Source: Gemmatimonadota bacterium (lineage in GTDB: Bacteria > Gemmatimonadota > Gemmatimonadetes > Gemmatimonadales > Gemmatimonadaceae). From it: a stretch of DNA of 48,696 bases. Within the stretch, counting starts at the first letter, position 1. Each line of letters begins with the position of its first letter. Positions 2,375 through 12,553 of the stretch are shown here, one piece after another. Made by a program: the position numbers and the translations under genes. The stretch covers positions 1 to 48,696 of the forward strand of contig QHVE01000025.1 in NCBI GenBank assembly GCA_003223455.1, in the 5' to 3' direction. Below the pieces are notes generated by a model. It saw nothing but the letters and a program-made list of their open reading frames with translations. It was not told where the DNA came from and made no database searches.

Positions 2375-5300
2375 CGCAGCCCCGCGTACCAGCGCAGCCC
2401 CGTCCCCATCCCCTTGAATCCGACGTCGCGCAGCGCCTGCGCGTAGCGCGAGCCAGCGGCGCGCTCGCCGTCGATCGACTCCACGACGACGTCCTTCCGC
2501 CGTGACATTCCCTGGCGCGCCGACAGCCGTTCGACGAGCACTCGCGCCGCCGTCGCCACGTCGGCGGGCAGGAAGCCCTCGGCGACGCGGAGCTTGCTGC
2601 CTCGACCTTCAGCCACGAGGACGATGCGGCCAGCGCGCGTGACGAGCAGTGCGCCCGCGCCGCGCGGACGGCCCAACGGATCGGATTCGACACCCGCCGC
2701 GAGCGGCAGCGCGTACACGTTCGCGGGATCGGAGACGGACATCACGACCGTCTCGTCGAGGTTCTCTGGTAGGGGCGCGCGCAGTAGCTCCACCGCTTCG
2801 GGCAGCGCGAACTGGGCGCCGGCGAGACCGGCGACGAAGTAGCCGCGCTGCACCTCGCCGCGAAACTCGAGTCGCTTGAGCTCGTGGTAGATCTCGCGCC
2901 AGCCGACGGCGGGATGCTCGCGGCGCCACCAGTCGCGCGACACGATGCCATAGCGGGCGAGCCACTGGCGCGCGACACGTTCGGCGAGCGTCTGCTCGTC
3001 GGCCTCCGCGCCGAGTGTGCCGAGCGTGTGCACGAGCGACCAGCGGCCACCCCACGCCGAGGGCTCCTCACGGTCGGGGCGCTTCCACTTGGCGATGCGG
3101 CGCGGGTTGATGCGTCGCTGGACGATCGGGCGGCTCTCCGACGGCGTGAAGCCCGCGGGGAGCCAGCGCGTCGGATCGGGCTCGTTCGGGCGCTTGATCG
3201 GGAAGCGCGGGCGCCAGCGCAGTACGTCGCGCAGCGCCTCCACGGTATCGTTCGTCACGAGCCCGCCGGCGACGAGCTCGCGCAGCGCGTCGCGCGTGCT
3301 CTGGGGTGAAAGCCCGGTCGCCGCCGAGACATCGGCCGTGAACGACGCGCCCTGCGAGCGAAGCACGTCCCGTACGCTGCGCGCGTTGTCGGAGAGCAGC
3401 GATTCGGCGATCGGCTGGCGAAGCCAGAGACGTCCGGTGCCGCGCTCGAAGAACCGGATGCGCCCCATGGCGTGCGACGGTGCGACGCCGACCTCGTCGA
3501 CGCGCGGCTCGGCGGCCCAGACGAGCGCACCCGACGCGGCGAGACGGGCGAGCGAGCTCGCGTCGTAGCGCTCGATGCGCGACGGCAGGTAGTCGCGCTC
3601 CCAGCCGTCGGCGGGACGGGCGAGACCGTAGAGCTGCGACATCACCGTCGCGGTGCCTTCGTAGCCGGTGACGCGATCGTCCGGAGCGAGATGCTGCCAG
3701 CGCTGCTCGAGGCGGGCGAAGGCGGCGAGCGGCACCGCCTCGATCTGCTTGCGCGCCTGAGCGAGCTCGCGCCGGCGCGCCTGCTCGAGCAGGCGGCGCG
3801 CGCACCACCGTGTCGTGGAGCGGTCGCCACCGAAGACGCCGCGCACGAGCACCTGCTTCTGCTCCCACTCGTCGAACCGGCGCTCGATCCAGCGCGGCTC
3901 GAAGTCGTAGCGCGCGCGGACGTCGTCGACGGACACCGGACCGGCGAGCGCGACGAACCGCGACAGCACCTCGCGCCGCGCGGCCTTCTCGGTGAGCACG
4001 GGTTCGACGGCCGCGTCAGGCGCGACGCCCGGGCCGAAGGCGGCGACGTAGCGGGCGGCGTCGTCCATGAGAATCCAGCGGTCCTGCGGCCCACTCGGTG
4101 TCGGGATGCGCGCCGCGATCAGTCGGCCGCCGTCCAGCAGCGTGGCGAGCGGATCACCGCGACGCCACTCGGTGGAAGGCGCGACGCGCTCGGCGAGCTC
4201 GGCGCGCGTGAGGTCGCCGGCACGATCGACGAGCACCGCGAGCTCCTCGGCGTCGCGGGCCTGGCGGCCGGGCGCGGTGCCGCGGCGGCGCGCGAGGAGC
4301 TCGTGCAGCACAGCGAGCGTGGCGTCGTCGGCGCCCTCGCCCCCCATCAGCTCGTCGAGGAGGGCGCGGTCGAGCGAGAGCAGTGCGGCACGCTGCTCGG
4401 CGCGCGGCGTGTCGTCGCCGTACATGTGATCGATCACGAAGCCGAACTGCAGCGACGCGGCGAAGGGCGACGGGATCTCGGTCGGGGCGACGTGAATGCC
4501 GATCTCGCCCGACGCGATGCGTCCGAGCACGTCGCGCAGCGCGGGCATGTCGAACGCGTCCTGCAGCACGTCGCGATAGGTCTCGACGACGATCGGGAAC
4601 GACGGGTATTCGCTCACCGCCTGGAGCAGATCGAGCGCCTTGAGCCGCTGCAGCCAGAGCGGCATGCGGCGCTTCGCGCTGCCACGAGGCAGGAGCAGCG
4701 CGCGGGCGGCGTTCATGCGGAATCGTGCGCCGAACAGCGACGACTGCCCGACTTCCTCGAGGACGAGCCGCTCGGCCTCCTCGGCGCCGAGCGAGCGGAA
4801 GACGTCCGTGGGCGGCGCGGCGCCGAGATCGGGGAGGCGGAGCATGAGGCCGTCGTCGGTGGTCTGCACCTGGACCTCGACGCCGAGCCGCTCGCGCATG
4901 CGCCGGCCGATCGCCATCCCCCACGGGGCGTTGACGCGTCCGCCGAACGGCGCGTGGAGCACCATGCGCACGGAGCCGACCTCGTCGCGAAAGTGCTCGA
5001 GGACGAGGCGCTTGTCGTCGGGGACGTAGCGCGTGATCGCGCGCTGCGACTGGACGTACTCGACGAGCGACCGCGTGGTCGGTTCGTCGGCGCCGTACTT
5101 CTGCTGGATCGTTGCGAGGTCGGCGAGGGTGCGCGCGTCGTCGAGCTCGCGGCGCAGCTCACCGACGCGCGCCGTGAGGTGCGACGAGCGCGCCATGAAC
5201 TCCCCGTGCCAGAAGGGCATGCGCGCCGGCGCGCCGGGCGCGGGAACGACGATGACGCGATCGTGCTCGATGGCGCGGATGCGCCAGGTCGACGAGCCGA

Positions 5301-6886
5301 GCTGGAACGCATCGCCGACGCGGGACTCGTGGACGAACTCCTCGTCGAGCTCTCCGAGTCGTGTCTTGTCGGCGAGGTTGACGGTGTAGAGGCCGCGGTC
5401 GGGGATCGTGCCGCCGGCGCATCGGCGTGAGCGCGTCCGTGGTGCGGTCCCACGAGATGCGGGCGTCGAGCTCCGAGGCGACGTCGCTCGGGTACTTGCC
5501 GGCGAGCATGGCGAGCGTCTCGTCGAAGGCCGCGCGGGTGAGAGTGTGGTACGGGTATGCCAGGCGCACGAAGTCGAACAGCTCCGTCGCGGTCCACTCC
5601 GGCGTGTCCGACGCGACACAGGCGACGATGAGCTGGGCGAGGACGTCGAGCGCATTGTGGACGACGCGTGTGGGCTCGACGTCGCCCTCGCGCATGGCGC
5701 CGACGATGGCGAGCTGCTCGAGCGCGTCGTCGCGGAAGGTCGGGACGAAGACGCCGCGGCTCGTCGCGGTGAGCGTGTGACCGGCGCGGCCGACGCGCTG
5801 GAGCGCCGCGGCGACGCGCTTCGGGCTCTGGAGCTGGAGCACGACGTCGACGGAGCCGACGTCGATCCCGAGCTCGAGCGAGCTCGTTGTGACGAGCGCG
5901 CGCAGCTCACCCGCCTTGAGGCGCTCCTCGAGCATGAAGCGCCGCTCGCGCGAGAGGGAGCCGTGGTACGGCTGGGCGATGTCCTCGGCGGCGAGCGTGT
6001 TGACGCGCGCGGCGATCTTCTCCGACTGCGCGCGATTGTTGACGAAGACGAGCGTCGTGCGCGCGTTCCGGATCTCGTGCAGCACGAGGGGCGCGACGGC
6101 GGTCCAGATCGTCCCGTCGACGTGCGCGAGGTCGTCGACCGGCGAGCGGATCTCGGTCTCCATCTTCTTCACGAGTCCGCAGTCTACGATTTCGACCGGG
6201 CGGAATCTGTCCGGCGATTCACAGCCGCCAAGGAAGCGCGCGATCTCGTCGAGCGGCTTCTGCGTCGCGGAGAGCCCGATGCGCTGTGGCGGATCGGGGG
6301 CGACGCGGCTGAGGCGCTCGAGGGTGAGCGCGAGGTGCGCACCGCGCTTGGTGCCGGCGACGGCGTGAATCTCGTCGACGATGACGGCACGGAGCGCGCT
6401 GAACATCGAGCGGCCGCGGACGCTCGTGAGCAGGATGTGGAGCGACTCCGGCGTCGTGATGAGGATGTGCGGCGTCTTGCGCAGCATGCGGGCGCGGGCG
6501 CTCGCCGGTGTGTCGCCGGTGCGAACGGCGACGCGAATCTCGGGGAACTTCTCGCCTGCCTTCTCGAACCGTTCCTTGAGTTGCGCGAGCGGGAGCTCGA
6601 GGTTGCGCTGGACGTCGTTGTTGAGCGCCTTGAGCGGGGAGACGTAGAGGAGATGGACGGCGTTGGCGAGTGGCGCCTGCAGGCCGTCGGTGATGAGCTG
6701 GTCGAGCTCGTAGAGGAACGCCGCGAGCGTCTTGCCCGTGCCGGTGGGAGCGAGGATGAGCGTGTCGGAGCCGGCGGCGATGGCGGGCCAACCGGCGCGT
6801 TGCGGGGCGCTCGGCGCACCGAGGGTTTCGGTGAACCAGGTGCGAACGATCGGATGGAAGGGCGCGAGGGCGTCGACTTCGGACAT
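2371..6886 (-). pseudogene. lhr: Lhr-type DEAD/DEAH superfamily 2 helicase, interrupted by a frameshift
   Basis: Large ATP-dependent helicase of the Lhr family, thought to act in DNA repair and nucleic acid remodelling. The first part (6886 down to about 5420, ~489 codons) has Walker A APTGTGKT near residues 46-53, the DEIH box, SAT motif, and a RecA2 domain ending in QRVGRAGH. The second part (about 5420 to 2371, ~1016 codons) continues with GGTIPDRGLY and the long winged-helix and C-terminal Lhr regions. Together they give about 1500 residues, the usual full length. The frame changes between PMR and AGGTIPDR in a GC-rich run at 5411-5422, consistent with one extra base or two missing. Nothing else looks decayed, so a sequencing error is quite possible. 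The start is the ATG at 6884-6886. Confidence 0.9.
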
Positions 6887-6887
6887 C

Positions 6888-6899
6888 CTAGAATTCTAG
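6888..6899 (-). promoter_or_regulatory. palindrome with possible -10 element abutting the lhr start codon
   Basis: CTAGAATTCTAG is a perfect 12-base palindrome starting one base upstream of the lhr ATG. Read on the minus strand it contains TAGAAT, a 5/6 match to the sigma70 -10 box, ending six bases before the ATG, which would give a leaderless transcript. No good -35 box is visible at 16-18 bases upstream. The palindrome could alternatively be an operator. Confidence 0.35.
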
Positions 6900-7046
6900 C
6901 GGGCTGCATCGAGCAATCCGCGGGTGTTTCGGTGGCGCCGTAGCTCAGCCATCCGATCTCCCATTCAATCGCGATGCCGGCCGACAGCGGCGTAAACCCT
7001 TGCCTTGCCCCGGATCGACAGCGTACCGACTGGACGTCCGCAGATC

Positions 7047-7135
7047 ATACAGCAATCGTTTGCTGCGTTTCACGCTGATACGCTGCATGATGTGAGTCGG
7101 ACATTACGGACTTTGCTGTATAATTGGCGTTAGGT
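7047..7135 (+). other. left-end attC-like half site with promoter-like TATAAT
   Basis: ATACAGCAA (7047-7055) and TTGCTGTAT (7113-7121) form a 9-bp inverted repeat with 57 bases between, followed by the consensus core GTTAGGT (7129-7135, fits GTTRRRY). This matches the L''/L'-R' half of an attC. The partner R'' core (RYYYAAC) is not present at the symmetric position (GACGTCC instead), so the site is degenerate or derived from an attI. TATAAT at 7119-7124 lies in the L' arm, 35 bases ahead of the first cassette gene and could serve as its -10 box, although no good -35 box is visible. Confidence 0.5.
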
Positions 7136-7158
7136 GGCCCTGACCAACAGAAATCGAC

Positions 7159-7527
7159 ATGGATAGCCTACCCGACGCTCTCTTCCGCGCCGCTCCGGAG
7201 ATCCGCTACGTGGCCCTGTACCGCCACGGGGAGCTGCAACTGGCTCAGCGCCCAGCGCTGCGCGACGCCAGCGCCACGGAATCGGATCGGTACGAGGAAC
7301 TCCTCGTCAACCCGGCGCTGCTGGTCCTCACTCGCCAGCGCGGTAGCATCGACTGTGGGGGCCTCGAGTACGTGCTTGTGCGCTATGGCCGGTTCTTCCA
7401 GCTCGTGCACCCCGTCGATGGCGGTCACGTCTCGGTGGCGATCGAGCCGGATGCCGACCTTCCCGCGCTCGTCGATACCGTGCGCGACGCGGCGCGGGCG
7501 TATGGCCTCCTCCCTGCGGCCACCTAA
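7159..7527 (+). CDS. cassette-borne 122-aa protein, roadblock/longin-like
   Basis: Sole gene of the first integron cassette. It starts 29 bases after the recombination core and its stop codon TAA lies inside the R'' core ACCTAAC of the following attC, a typical cassette arrangement. The product has no signal peptide or membrane segment. Visible blocks are RYVALYRHGELQL, LLVNPALLVLTRQRG, IDCGGLEYVLVRYG and a C-terminal helix PALVDTVRDAARAYG. The beta-hairpin/helix pattern with an IDxGG turn and a final amphipathic helix resembles small roadblock/LC7 or longin-fold sensors, but this is fold-level inference only. No clear Shine-Dalgarno is visible, so the ATG at 7159 is chosen by length and position. 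Confidence 0.75.
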   Translation: MDSLPDALFRAAPEIRYVALYRHGELQLAQRPALRDASATESDRYEELLVNPALLVLTRQRGSIDCGGLEYVLVRYGRFFQLVHPVDGGHVSVAIEPDADLPALVDTVRDAARAYGLLPAAT

Positions 7528-7620
7528 CGAACGCTGAAGCTGACAAAGCATCGCTATTGAATCGTGCGGCCTGGCCGCACCCTTGTTTGAATGCTTTGCA
7601 GCTTAGCTGGGGCGTTAGCC
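7522..7620 (+). other. attC recombination site (complete)
   Basis: R'' is ACCTAAC (7522-7528) and R' is GTTAGCC (7614-7620; one base off GTTRRRY). L'' (7533-7542) pairs with L' (7599-7607) except for one unpaired G at 7536, the extrahelical base expected in attC sites folded for integrase recognition. The stem continues with AAAGCAT/ATGCTTT (7545-7551 with 7591-7597), and the tip is a perfect 8-bp hairpin GTGCGGCC/GGCCGCAC (7564-7571 with 7573-7580). The 99-base length is within the usual 55-140 range. The orientation places gene 7159-7527 upstream and the MBL gene downstream. Confidence 0.9.
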
Positions 7621-7678
7621 CGACCAAAAGGATATGACCACCGACCGGCATGCCGCTCACCGCACATAAGGAACTCAG

Positions 7679-8699
7679 ATGACTCTCCACCTGCTCGTCG
7701 CCGCGGCGATTCTCGCGTGCGCCACGCTTCCGGCAGCCGCCCACGGCGGCGACCGCGCCGATGGGAACGCCCAAGCGCCAGCCGCGTCGCTGCGTCTGTC
7801 TGGACGCGGGGCGGCGATCGCAGGTGCGTGGCGGTCGGCGGCCGCGATGCCGCCGGGCGACACTTTGAAGGTCGTGCTGCTCGGCACCGGGGCCGGGCCA
7901 GCCGTGAACCTGCACCAGTATGGAGCGAGCATTCTCGTCGAGGTCGGAGGGCACGCTGCGACTCGCGCAGGCCGGCGTTCCGGTCGGCTCCATCACGCGT
8001 GTGTTCCTCACGCACCTGCACTCGGACCACGTGGTCCAACTGCCCGACCTGCTCCTGACCGGCTGGGCGGGTGGGACGCGCGCGGTGCCGCTCGAGGTTT
8101 GGGGACCCGTCGGCACGCGCGCCATGATGGCGCACCTTCAGGAAGCGTTCGCCTTCGATATCCAGATGCGCCGTGACATCGACGAGCACTTTCCGGCCGC
8201 CGGCATTACCGTCGTCAGCCACGAGGTGACGGCAGACACTGTCGTATTCTCCGAACACGGCGCGACGGTGACCGCGTTCGCCGTGGATCACGGGCCGGTG
8301 CAGCCCGCCTTCGGCTATCGCGTCGACTACGGGGGCCACTCGGTCGTGCTATCGGGCGATACGCGCGTCTCGGAGAATCTGGTACGCCACGCACAGGGCG
8401 TCGACGTACTCGTGCACGAGGTCGTCGATCCCCAGGCGATTCGAGATCGACCGGACCACCCAAGTGCAGCGATCATCGACGCGATCATCGCACACCATAC
8501 GACGCCGCAGCAGGCCGCCGAGCTGTTCCGGCGCGTCGCGCCCCGCCTGGCCGTCTACTCGCACGCACCCAATACTGAACGGATTCTCGCGCAGACCCGG
8601 ACGGCTTACGCTGGTCCGTTGGAGGGGGCAGAGGACCTTCTGACGATCTTCGTTGGCACGCAGATCAAGGTGGTGCATCATCCGCCCCTGCAACAATGA
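7679..8699 (+). pseudogene. exported MBL-fold metallohydrolase (RNase Z-like), disrupted by an out-of-frame deletion
   Basis: Gene of the second cassette. It begins with AAGGA at 7669-7673, an ATG at 7679 and a Sec signal peptide (MTLHLLVAAAILACATLPAAA). The N-terminal part ends in LLGTGAGPAVNLHQYGASILVEVGG; the frame then shifts near 7945-7952 to EGTLRLAQAGVPVGSITRVF. Homologues normally have about nine more residues (LLFDxGRG-like) between these blocks, so some 28 bases appear deleted. Downstream, the metal-binding HLHSDH motif, the FAVDHGP and SGDTR blocks and the IHEV-like LVHEVVD are intact to the stop at 8699. The family hydrolyses phosphodiester or ester bonds with a di-metal centre; substrate is unknown. 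The gene is probably inactive as written. Confidence 0.8.
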
Positions 8700-8783
8700 C
8701 GCGCTGCAACGTTCGTCCGTGTGGCCGCTCGCGGCGACGGTGCGCGCAGGTGCACTCGCGCGCCGGATTTCCTCGCGCCTGCG

Positions 8784-8820
8784 GGCTAATGAACGCTGCA
8801 CCTGACGGGCGATAGGCCGC
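8784..8820 (+). other. degenerate attC remnant (5' half)
   Basis: GGCTAAT followed by GAACGCTGCACCTGAC aligns with the 5' half of the complete attC at 7522 (18 of 22 bases match). It lies 84 bases after the MBL stop codon, where an attC is expected. No normal 3' half follows; GATAGGC (8811-8817) resembles a collapsed R' core (GTTAGGC), suggesting that the central stem was deleted. Confidence 0.55.
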
Positions 8821-8920
8821 CACACAGTTCAATCACCGACCGCTCACTTCGCCTCGTACGGTCCGCGGCCTCCGTCGAGATCTCATCGCCGCCGGAGCCC
8901 AACCCGCGCCAGGCGCGACA

Positions 8921-9766
8921 CTACTTTCGAAATAGGTCGTCGCCGCTCAACGATGGCGACGCTGGTACGAACGAGACCGCGCCATTCCATACGCGGTCTC
9001 GCGCGGGCCGGAAACGCTGCATCGCTTCCGCGCCGAACTGGGTCCTGTGGCACGCCATGGTCTGAACCGCCGCGTCGAGATCCGCCGGCGTAAACGGCAC
9101 CTTGACGGTAAAGTATTTCGCCTGAGGGAACAGCAGCGGCGGCTCGCCGCGCTGCGGATTGGCCAGTCGGAACATCTCGATCGGCAGATACATATAGAAC
9201 AAACGCTCGGGCATACCAGGTGCGCCGAACCGGAACAATTGCGTGGCGATGTTGCTGACGATCCGGTGGTCGGGGTGGCCGGTGCCGCCATCGGGGCCCC
9301 AGGTGACCACGACGTCGGGCTGTAGCCGCTCGATCTCCTTGGCGATGCGGTCGGTAAGGCGAGTCATCAAGCTGCGATCGCCCAGATAGTCGCCGAGTTT
9401 TCCGTCGGGAAATCCGAGAAGAATCGGATCGCGCGCGCCAAGAGTCGTCGCTGCGCAGCGAGCCTCATCGGCGCGAGCCGTCACGAGCGCGTCCCCCACG
9501 GGACCGGAGTCGGGGCGCTGGAGATACGTTTGCGTTCCGCTTCCGCCTGATCCGTCGGTCACGATAATCATCTGCACCTGTACGCCCTCTCGGGCGTAGC
9601 GCGCAAGCGCAGGCCCCGCCGCGGTTTCGTCGTCCGCATGTGCGAGGAGTAGGACGATCGTGCGCGGCCGATTCTGCGACGCAGCCGGAGTCGGAGGCAA
9701 CATCACGATTGCAACCGCTAGCGCGGCGAGAATGCTGCGTCGACGAGATATCATTGCATCGAACAT
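8921..9766 (-). CDS. exported PIG-L family (LmbE-like) zinc deacetylase
   Basis: Predicted N-deacetylase of the PIG-L/LmbE superfamily, which removes acetyl groups from GlcNAc-type or related amide substrates. The 281-residue product starts with an RR-containing signal (SRRRSILAALAVA, then PAASQ), so it is exported, perhaps by Tat. The zinc-binding AHADDE motif follows at the first beta strand, with DGSGG, WGPDGGTGHPDH and the distal HRTQFG block, all expected of the family. It lies between two attC remnants but in the opposite direction to the cassette array, which is unusual for cassette genes. The start at 9766 has only a weak GAG upstream; the internal ATG at 9754 is an alternative. Confidence 0.85.
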   Translation of the reverse strand: MFDAMISRRRSILAALAVAIVMLPPTPAASQNRPRTIVLLLAHADDETAAGPALARYAREGVQVQMIIVTDGSGGSGTQTYLQRPDSGPVGDALVTARADEARCAATTLGARDPILLGFPDGKLGDYLGDRSLMTRLTDRIAKEIERLQPDVVVTWGPDGGTGHPDHRIVSNIATQLFRFGAPGMPERLFYMYLPIEMFRLANPQRGEPPLLFPQAKYFTVKVPFTPADLDAAVQTMACHRTQFGAEAMQRFRPARDRVWNGAVSFVPASPSLSGDDLFRK

Positions 9767-9795
9767 TACGGAATGCTCGATGCAGTCGATAGACC

Positions 9796-10443
9796 TCAGC
9801 GTTGATCAAGCCGCGCGGTCTGAGGCGGCCGGCGCCACGCCGCTGGTCGGCTGCGACGTTCGATGCGCCGGCGGCCTAACGGACGTTGGAGCTGACGGGC
9901 GTCGAGCCCTGCCCACCGATCGCGCTGCGCGGGAAGCGTGACGAGCGGCCGCTCCCCCGAAATCACGGCGATGACCGGCCGCGTCGTCATCGAATCGCCG
10001 TGCCACGAGGCGATCACGTCGTCGTACCGCCGCAGGAGCGGCTCCAACACCACCCACGTCGATTCGGCGTGCGATTTCACGTCGATGGGGAGCGTGAGCG
10101 GCGGACGACCCGCGTACACACTGCCACCACGCGCCCCGATCCATGCGCGAAGGGGCGCGAGATACAACGACTCGAGCGTGCGGTCGGCGCGCACACTGTC
10201 GCGCGCGTGTGCGACGAGCAGCGCGCCGTCGACGAGATAGATGTCCACTTCCACGCTACCATAGCCGCGGTCCAGCACGTCGAGCAGCGGGCGTGCATGC
10301 TCATAGTCGTTGTGCGCGTGCGCATGGTCGAGCGACGATCGCGCGCGCGCCTGCATCGAGACCAGCACTGCGCAGACAATCGCAATGATTGTCCTCGTAC
10401 CGAGCTTCACGGGCTCACCGTTGCCGTGGATTGTTCGTGGCAT
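9796..10443 (-). pseudogene. exported GDPD/PI-PLC-like phosphodiesterase, 3'-truncated at an attC remnant
   Basis: The N-terminus has a signal-anchor-like segment (TRTIIAIVCAVLVSMQARA) followed by family-like blocks HAHNDYEHARPLLDVL, GYGSVEVDIYLVDGALLVAHA and ASWHGD, matching exported glycerophosphodiester phosphodiesterase/PI-PLC-like proteins in which paired His and Glu/Asp residues bind the catalytic metal. Similarity stops after PAQRDRWAGLDAR, exactly where the attC half at 9874-9900 begins on the other strand. The remaining ~35 residues (QLQRPLGRRR onward) are arginine-rich read-through of attC and flanking DNA. The C-terminal half of the barrel is missing, so activity is unlikely. The start at 10443 is uncertain; an in-frame GTG lies 12 codons later. 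Confidence 0.7.
9874..9900 (+). other. attC remnant (5' half) at the array's right edge
   Basis: GCCTAAC (9874-9880, fits RYYYAAC) is followed by GGACGTTGGAGCTGAC, matching the 5' half of the complete attC in 19 of 22 bases and matching the extrahelical-base side rather than the 3' side. No 3' half follows; the sequence passes directly into the body of a phosphodiesterase gene on the opposite strand. Confidence 0.6.
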
Positions 10444-12249: not shown

Positions 12250-12482
12250 ATGATGGGTGACAGAGTATTCCGAGACCTCCCGGCGTCGCACCGCGAGGCG
12301 TACGCGCAGTTCTACCGGTCGCCCTGCCTGATGGTGAACGTCGCCGTGAGGAACTGGAGCTTTCTATCTAGGATGGGGATGACCGGCTGCCGCTGGTTCG
12401 AGGGTATCGGCAACTATCTCTCGGTGCGGAAGCAGGCGGTCGTCTGTGGGACTGCAGATAGTTTCGGGCCCGACTCGCCGAC
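12250..12482 (+). pseudogene. fragment of a FAD/NAD(P)-dependent oxidoreductase-like gene
   Basis: A 75-80 codon stretch reads LPASHREAYAQFYRSP, then VNVAVRNWSFL, TGCRWFEGIGNYLSVRK and FGPDSP. I recognise this as an internal block of large flavin-dependent (amine-oxidase-like) proteins. The frame has no proper N-terminus and is lost right after FGPDSPT, where an unrelated fragment on the other strand begins. It is a relic rather than a gene. Confidence 0.5.
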
Positions 12483-12553
12483 CAGGTGCTCTGCACCTGC
12501 ACCATGATCTTGTGCCCCTTCCGGAATCGATAGCTCTGCGTGTGCAGGTCGGC
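12479..12553 (-). pseudogene. fragment of a CocE/NonD-type hydrolase C-terminus
   Basis: About 25 codons on the minus strand read ADLHTQSYRFRKGHKIM then VQVQSTW, a block characteristic of the C-terminal jelly-roll domain of X-Pro dipeptidyl-peptidase/CocE-type hydrolases. Family similarity stops abruptly at both ends. It touches the oxidoreductase fragment on one side and the sensor fragment on the other. Confidence 0.5.

Follow-up and report, generated by a model that had tools for sequence, protein, structure and literature searches.

Organization of the locus

We analysed a contig of 48,696 nucleotides from a Gemmatimonadota bacterium (GenBank QHVE01000025.1, assembly GCA_003223455.1), here called the window, in which an earlier reading made without database searches (the sequence-only reading) had described an integron gene-cassette array lacking an integrase. 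Cassettes enter integrons by recombination between a double-stranded attI site and the attC site of the cassette in the form of its folded bottom strand, catalysed by the integrase IntI. The window is contig C94 of genome G000 (4.96 Mb, 127 contigs), all positions are given in window coordinates, and the relatives found agreed with the proposed placement of the host in the Gemmatimonadota. The array lies to the right of lhr and was made up of the following features.

5159 to 6886, minus strand: lhr helicase gene, 5' part; left neighbour, reading away from the array (Pfam DEAD, Helicase_C, WH_Lhr)
7044 to 7056, minus strand: inverted copy of the attI L box, ATCATACAGCAAT, with at most 2 mismatches to the L-box reverse complement; putative accessory IntI-binding box
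7107 to 7135, plus strand: attI core predicted by attI models, with L box TTTGCTGTATAAT at 7112-7124 and R core GTTAGGT at 7129-7135
7130 to 7614, plus strand: cassette 1 (TTAGGT ... GGGGCG), its limits read from the attI core and the attC R'
7159 to 7527, plus strand: cassette-1 gene, 122 residues, predicted roadblock/LC7 fold, member of a widespread uncharacterised family
7522 to 7620, plus strand: attC of cassette 1 (R'' 7523-7529, R' 7614-7620; extrahelical G7536 and A7543)
7615 to 8813, plus strand: cassette 2 remnant, a metallo-beta-lactamase (MBL)-fold hydrolase gene and an attC without its 3' half
7920 to 8699, plus strand: MBL-fold open frame, probably frameshifted
8784 to 8813, plus strand: attC remnant, 5' arm (R''-L'') only, recognised against the family consensus
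8921 to 9766, minus strand: PIG-L family deacetylase gene between the two attC remnants (PF02585, E 3.9e-27)
9796 to 10443, minus strand: PI-PLC/glycerophosphodiesterase (GDPD)-family gene, C-terminus lost at the right end of the array
9873 to 9901, plus strand: second attC remnant, 5' arm only, joined to the broken 3' end of the PI-PLC/GDPD gene (arm-pattern match, 0 mismatches)

By tblastn, no intI-like sequence was detected in the window (best E about 0.5), and an Rfam search of the window was without matches. A promoter scan found no forward sigma-70-like promoter in 6850-7700, though the attI L box contains TATAAT.

A complete attC follows the first cassette gene

The site at 7522-7620 has the R'' sequence CCTAACG (7523-7529) and the R' sequence GTTAGCC (7614-7620) with the stem in between present. 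Cassette 1 has the layout of an integron cassette, an open reading frame (ORF) followed by an attC with R''-L''...L'-R' and an asymmetric bottom-strand stem, and cassette 2 carries a broken attC only. The site scored 80.8 bits with covariance model R1, which includes it, and 72.8 bits (E 8.5e-20) with model R2, which was built from 23 attCs of other genomes of the family Gemmatimonadaceae only. With R2 the runner-up in the window reached 17.4 bits, the mirror image of the site itself set aside. Folding of the bottom strand gave -25.4 kcal/mol as compared to -15.2 kcal/mol (sd 2.3) for shuffled sequences (z -4.4). Two bases of the stem are extrahelical, both on the top strand: G7536, as described earlier, and A7543, which is added here. 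The tip hairpin was found to have 7 pairs instead of the 8 bp first reported. Across 102 distinct family attCs, in an alignment that was fitted to the structure, this stem showed 94% standard pairs and 318 double-change cells as compared to 91 for column shuffles and at most 56 for slid partners, and a seven-sequence MAFFT alignment gave the same covariation picture (17 vs 7.2). Together these data demonstrate that 7522-7620 is a genuine attC; the complete site with R''/R' and G7536 in cassette layout, as proposed by the sequence-only reading, stood up to the covariance-model search (with models built from the family), to folding and to the comparison of relatives.

Two attC remnants had been proposed further downstream and both are present, as 5' arms only. 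The arm at 8784, GGCTAATGAACGCTGCACCTGACGGGCGAT, fits the family arm consensus by eye, and the arm at 9873, GGCCTAACGGACGTTGGAGCTGACGGGCG, fits it by eye and is also an exact match to the arm pattern; neither 8784-8813 nor 9873-9901 was significant with attC models R1 and R2. In both, the 3' half of the attC has been lost.

The head of the array matches the attI sites of the family

The left end of the array had been taken for an attC half site with the core GTTAGGT. The core was confirmed at 7129-7135, with the insertion point between 7129 and 7130, but the site itself was better explained as an attI. Using a matrix from 30 candidate attI sites downstream of intI, which included some weak sites and the genome's own site on contig C23, the left site scored 22.2 bits, higher than any other place in the window (next 9.0), and with an attC R'-side matrix it scored -13.8 bits; the window attC scored -2.8 and 33.5 bits, respectively. 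An attC without R'' was therefore dropped as an explanation of the left site. A cleaner 35-base matrix of 30 aligned sites, with the own genome left out, gave 24.8 bits (next 7.7), and background exceeded 12 bits at 2 of 205,456 positions. Model R3, which holds no own-genome site, matched two places in the whole genome at E up to 1, the C23 attI (19.0 bits) and the left site (17.0 bits, E 0.026). Searching with an attI pattern at 0 mismatches again returned only the left site and the C23 attI adjoining intI, and the reversed control had no match. The family attI core consensus is GCnGTCTAATnCGCGTTAGGC. By these models the left site is an attI rather than an attC half.

Sequence outside the core was also compared. 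The inverted copy of the L box (7044-7056) lies 85 bases before the attI core, and the intI-linked attI of relative G044 also has an inverted box, 64 bases ahead of its core. When the 272 bases before the cassette-1 gene were searched against the DNA of 177 family genomes, the attI cores of G162 and G087 were two of the seven best non-self matches. Family attIs seem to span about 200 bp and to contain several boxes. In the G044 attI (L203), IntI-like boxes also form a palindrome, GTTAGACTGCAatatcTGCAGTCTAA, right after the intI stop and about 160 bases ahead of the core.

The presence of an attI bears on whether the array could be an ordinary cluster of attC sites lacking integron-integrases (CALIN), in which the C23 integrase put cassettes at a chance site beside lhr and the left core was simply the target. 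CALINs have been proposed to arise in this way (PMC8618304), and this genome encodes an IntI. We consider this origin improbable because insertion at a non-specific site would not bring an attI left half: the L box and its spacing left of the insertion point (22-25 bits) are unexpected at a chance target, and the left site is one of just two R3 matches in the genome.

A single integrase gene lies elsewhere in the genome

The absence of intI that had been described held within the window but does not extend to the genome. A single intI above the NCBIfam cut-off was found in G000 at C23:709-1644 on the minus strand (408 bits), with an open frame of 337 residues, suggesting an intact gene. Downstream of the intI stop is an attI followed by a cassette that is cut short by the contig end, so that only its start is present. 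The genome search also recovered further attCs, four on C7 and others on C2 and C69. A third attI, on C2, is diverged and shares 76% identity with the C23 attI over 244 bases; a VOC/bleomycin-binding-like cassette and an attC come after it, and intI is absent there. The genome has three attIs and one intI in total. As the attC type and the attI core agree, use in trans is plausible, and the C23 integrase might still insert and excise cassettes in the window.

The cassettes at the end of C7 (L013) are possibly part of the C23 main array. They are separated by attCs, one of which has a mutated R', and carry genes that were named by eye as GrpB-like, DUF885-like peptidase and RibD/DHFR-like.

Unlinked attIs recur across the family

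Orphan integron clusters had been described as rare in this phylum, which was not borne out. intI was found in 59 of 99 Gemmatimonadaceae genomes and attC in 44 of 59, with up to 65 attCs per genome, and Gemmatimonadota is already listed as an integron phylum (PMC8618304). In C23 and in most of the relatives examined attI follows the intI 3' end. Model R3 run over 59 family genomes at E up to 0.05 gave 43 matches, with about 3 expected by chance if the rough E-values hold, and comparison with the intI search separated these into 17 intI-linked and 26 unlinked predicted attIs; many of the linked sites and none of the unlinked ones were contained in R3. Twenty unlinked attIs were examined, and 12 had attC downstream, all on the same strand, within the fetched stretch of up to about 2.5 kb. 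Two, in G173 and G041, had truncated intI upstream (3' pieces of 116 and 56 residues, respectively), and no intI piece was detectable upstream of the other 18, although some unlinked attIs are at contig edges and intI could be on the missing piece. A candidate in G082 (L185) scored 13.1 bits as an attI but resembles another attC type and was left uncounted.

G044, a single contig, has three unlinked attIs besides the intI-linked one, and two of these are 85-87% identical to the linked attI over about 210 bases and start about 25 bases inside the intI 3' end. The best match of an unlinked attI was the intI-linked attI of its own genome in G128 (tied with G119), G075, G115, G074, G090 and G044 (2 of 3). 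Near-identical copies within one genome argue for duplication, and by analogy an attI, with or without cassettes, could have been copied into the window from elsewhere, so that intI was never here and one integrase served several docks. The three attIs with one intI in G000 and the similarity of its C2 and C23 attIs fit this explanation. Truncated intI relics argue for loss, and the 3' intI pieces kept in G173 and G041 count against duplication, as does the lack of a long match between the window attI and any other attI; in addition, the common left boundary of the copies may just be the end of the functional attI. We regard duplication as rather unlikely for the window, although it is the strongest of the alternatives.

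In a test for selective upkeep of the unlinked attIs, the part of attI near the core was better conserved in some pairs (G044, p 0.0026 and 0.042; G090, p 0.0021; C23/C2, p 0.015) and not in G162, G075 and G074. The three testable unlinked-unlinked pairs gave p 0.059, 0.43 and 0.7. We tentatively raise the possibility, which we hold to be doubtful, that Gemmatimonadaceae run distributed integrons in which one integrase serves several maintained attI docks around the chromosome, each with a short array of its own that standard software would miss or label a CALIN, and that the window array is one such dock. Should one IntI still recognise several attIs in the same genome, cassettes could be placed in more than one expression context, which would change the usual picture of one integron with one dock.

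Origin of the array

The reading that we favour, and consider probable, is that 7040-9901 is a degraded integron remnant that lost intI and retains an attI, an intact cassette, a cassette with a broken attC, a reversed PIG-L gene and an attC arm. The cassettes would have entered the window attI by attC x attI recombination carried out by the lineage-specific IntI. In the family intI, attI and cassettes are co-oriented with attI after the intI 3' end, and deletion of intI would leave attI facing lhr; the relatives thus suggest that an intI once occupied the lhr locus. Loss of intI is supported as a route because the unlinked attIs of G173 and G041 keep 3' intI pieces. After this loss the far end would have decayed, removing two attC 3' halves and about 96 residues of the PI-PLC/GDPD gene and apparently shifting the frame of the MBL gene.

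Homology of the PI-PLC/GDPD gene ends at residue 183, at about window 9895, while a 287-residue homologue continues about 96 residues further, and the truncation coincides with the last attC arm. The MBL frame of cassette 2 matched Lactamase_B_2, with RNase Z/GntH-like matches below cut-off, and is a relative of PNGM-1. The expected N-terminal strands of this protein seem to be placed in another frame (ORF 7679-8176), and the gene is therefore probably frameshifted; the N-terminal frame had no database match. The reversed PIG-L gene is possibly a reversed cassette.

The following observations weigh against the favoured reading. No intI relic was detected by tblastn at the lhr-attI locus in the window. 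Between the window attI and the C23 attI, similarity does not extend beyond the last 20 bases (18/20) and there is no longer homologous block, and therefore the C23 IntI may recognise it poorly. The same lhr-attI junction was found in no relative searched. Finally, the assembly consists of 127 contigs and local misassembly is possible. In the extreme case the lhr end would have been wrongly joined to an array contig, in favour of which stand the tendency of assemblies to break at repeated attCs and the apparent frameshifts in lhr and the MBL gene. The lhr-attI join, however, is without an attC or attI repeat, and the same kind of unlinked attI array is present in the single contig of G044, and we consider such an artefact very improbable.

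Cassette 1 product and flanking sequence

The product of cassette 1 had been described as roadblock/longin-like with no recognised role, and structure prediction supported this. Its AlphaFold model (predicted local distance difference test score 82.6) had Roadblock/LC7 proteins and MglB as top Foldseek PDB matches, the best being 3kye (E 2.2e-4, template-modelling score 0.65), and follows the alpha-beta-beta-alpha-beta-beta-beta-alpha order save for a second middle helix. The modelled protein is thus assigned a roadblock/LC7 fold. None of 16 family members had a Pfam match, the Roadblock/LC7 profile included, and the cassette-1 protein had no PADLOC match. Homologues of about 45-64% identity are found in Methylomonas, Geothrix, Brocadia, Terrimonas, Kiloniella and others. 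There is no attC of this type near the homologues in G013 or near those of other phyla, and spread of this gene as a cassette therefore lacks support. The family (window 7159-7527, L188-L202) is scattered across phyla without a Pfam model and has the motif ESDRYEELLVNP...RGNIDCGGLEY.

The left flank is housekeeping lhr, as described earlier and confirmed by its Pfam domains. The gene is frameshifted near 5,421-5,426, while relatives have one long open frame, and this split could be a real pseudogene or an assembly indel error. The region upstream of lhr differs in every readable genus member and no unoccupied site was found among them. To the right of the array, 12274-12551 contains gene fragments, one piece of which is 82% identical to contig C102 of the same genome. 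This region also contains a 71-base stretch that is 84-94% identical to places in most genus members; it is not a tRNA and matched no Rfam family.

Comparison with known systems

The attC, attI, loss of intI and CALINs are all already known. We found no description in the open-access literature of recurrent attI-headed arrays without integrase and with several attIs per genome, which does not prove novelty. The window array resembles CALINs (Cury et al., IntegronFinder) in having attC cassettes with no IntI-like sequence beside them and an integrase elsewhere in the genome. It differs in that it starts with an attI and has one intact attC. The earlier label of CALIN-type was therefore apt for the attC cassettes without nearby intI and did not fit the single intact attC, as two are asked for (PMC9024848), or the attI at the head. 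The sequence models point to an attI at the array head as in a complete integron, although intI does not adjoin it and is on C23 only. IntegronFinder 2 calls CALINs from two attCs by default and searches for attI only in class 1 (PMC9024848). With one significant attC and two remnants below significance, and with attI modelled in class 1 only, this locus is expected to be passed over. Complete integrons and CALINs occur in about equal numbers (PMC9024848), and for CALINs several origins have been put forward. Finding an attI at the head of a CALIN tells platforms that lost their integrase or were copied apart from off-target insertions; current tools do not make this distinction, as they model attI in class 1 only. 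The family attI alignment lets array origin and multi-dock use be examined in other lineages.

An inverted layout with intI reading towards the cassettes occurs in sedentary chromosomal integrons of Treponema and Planctomycetes. The family shares with these the attI after the intI 3' end and a lineage-specific attC type, and the window locus differs in being without intI. Archaeal attIs have also been reported downstream of intI (PMC9668308). For Xanthomonas, loss of intI from integrons and the presence of CALINs at further loci have been described (PMC12444791), and the likeness lies in integrase loss with cassettes kept and arrays at several chromosomal places. The parts of that report available to us describe no attI copies at the CALINs away from the integron locus, while the extra attIs of the Gemmatimonadaceae head arrays. 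Within the Gemmatimonadaceae, G072 (7.5 Mb, 4 contigs) has a long attC array on a 1,106,233-base contig, and a 1.1 Mb replicon of Gemmatirosa kalamazoonesis is reported to carry a large integron (PMC9024848). The Gemmatirosa integron shares the attC type and, as judged from relatives, the family of the window array, but unlike the window array it is complete, long and equipped with intI.

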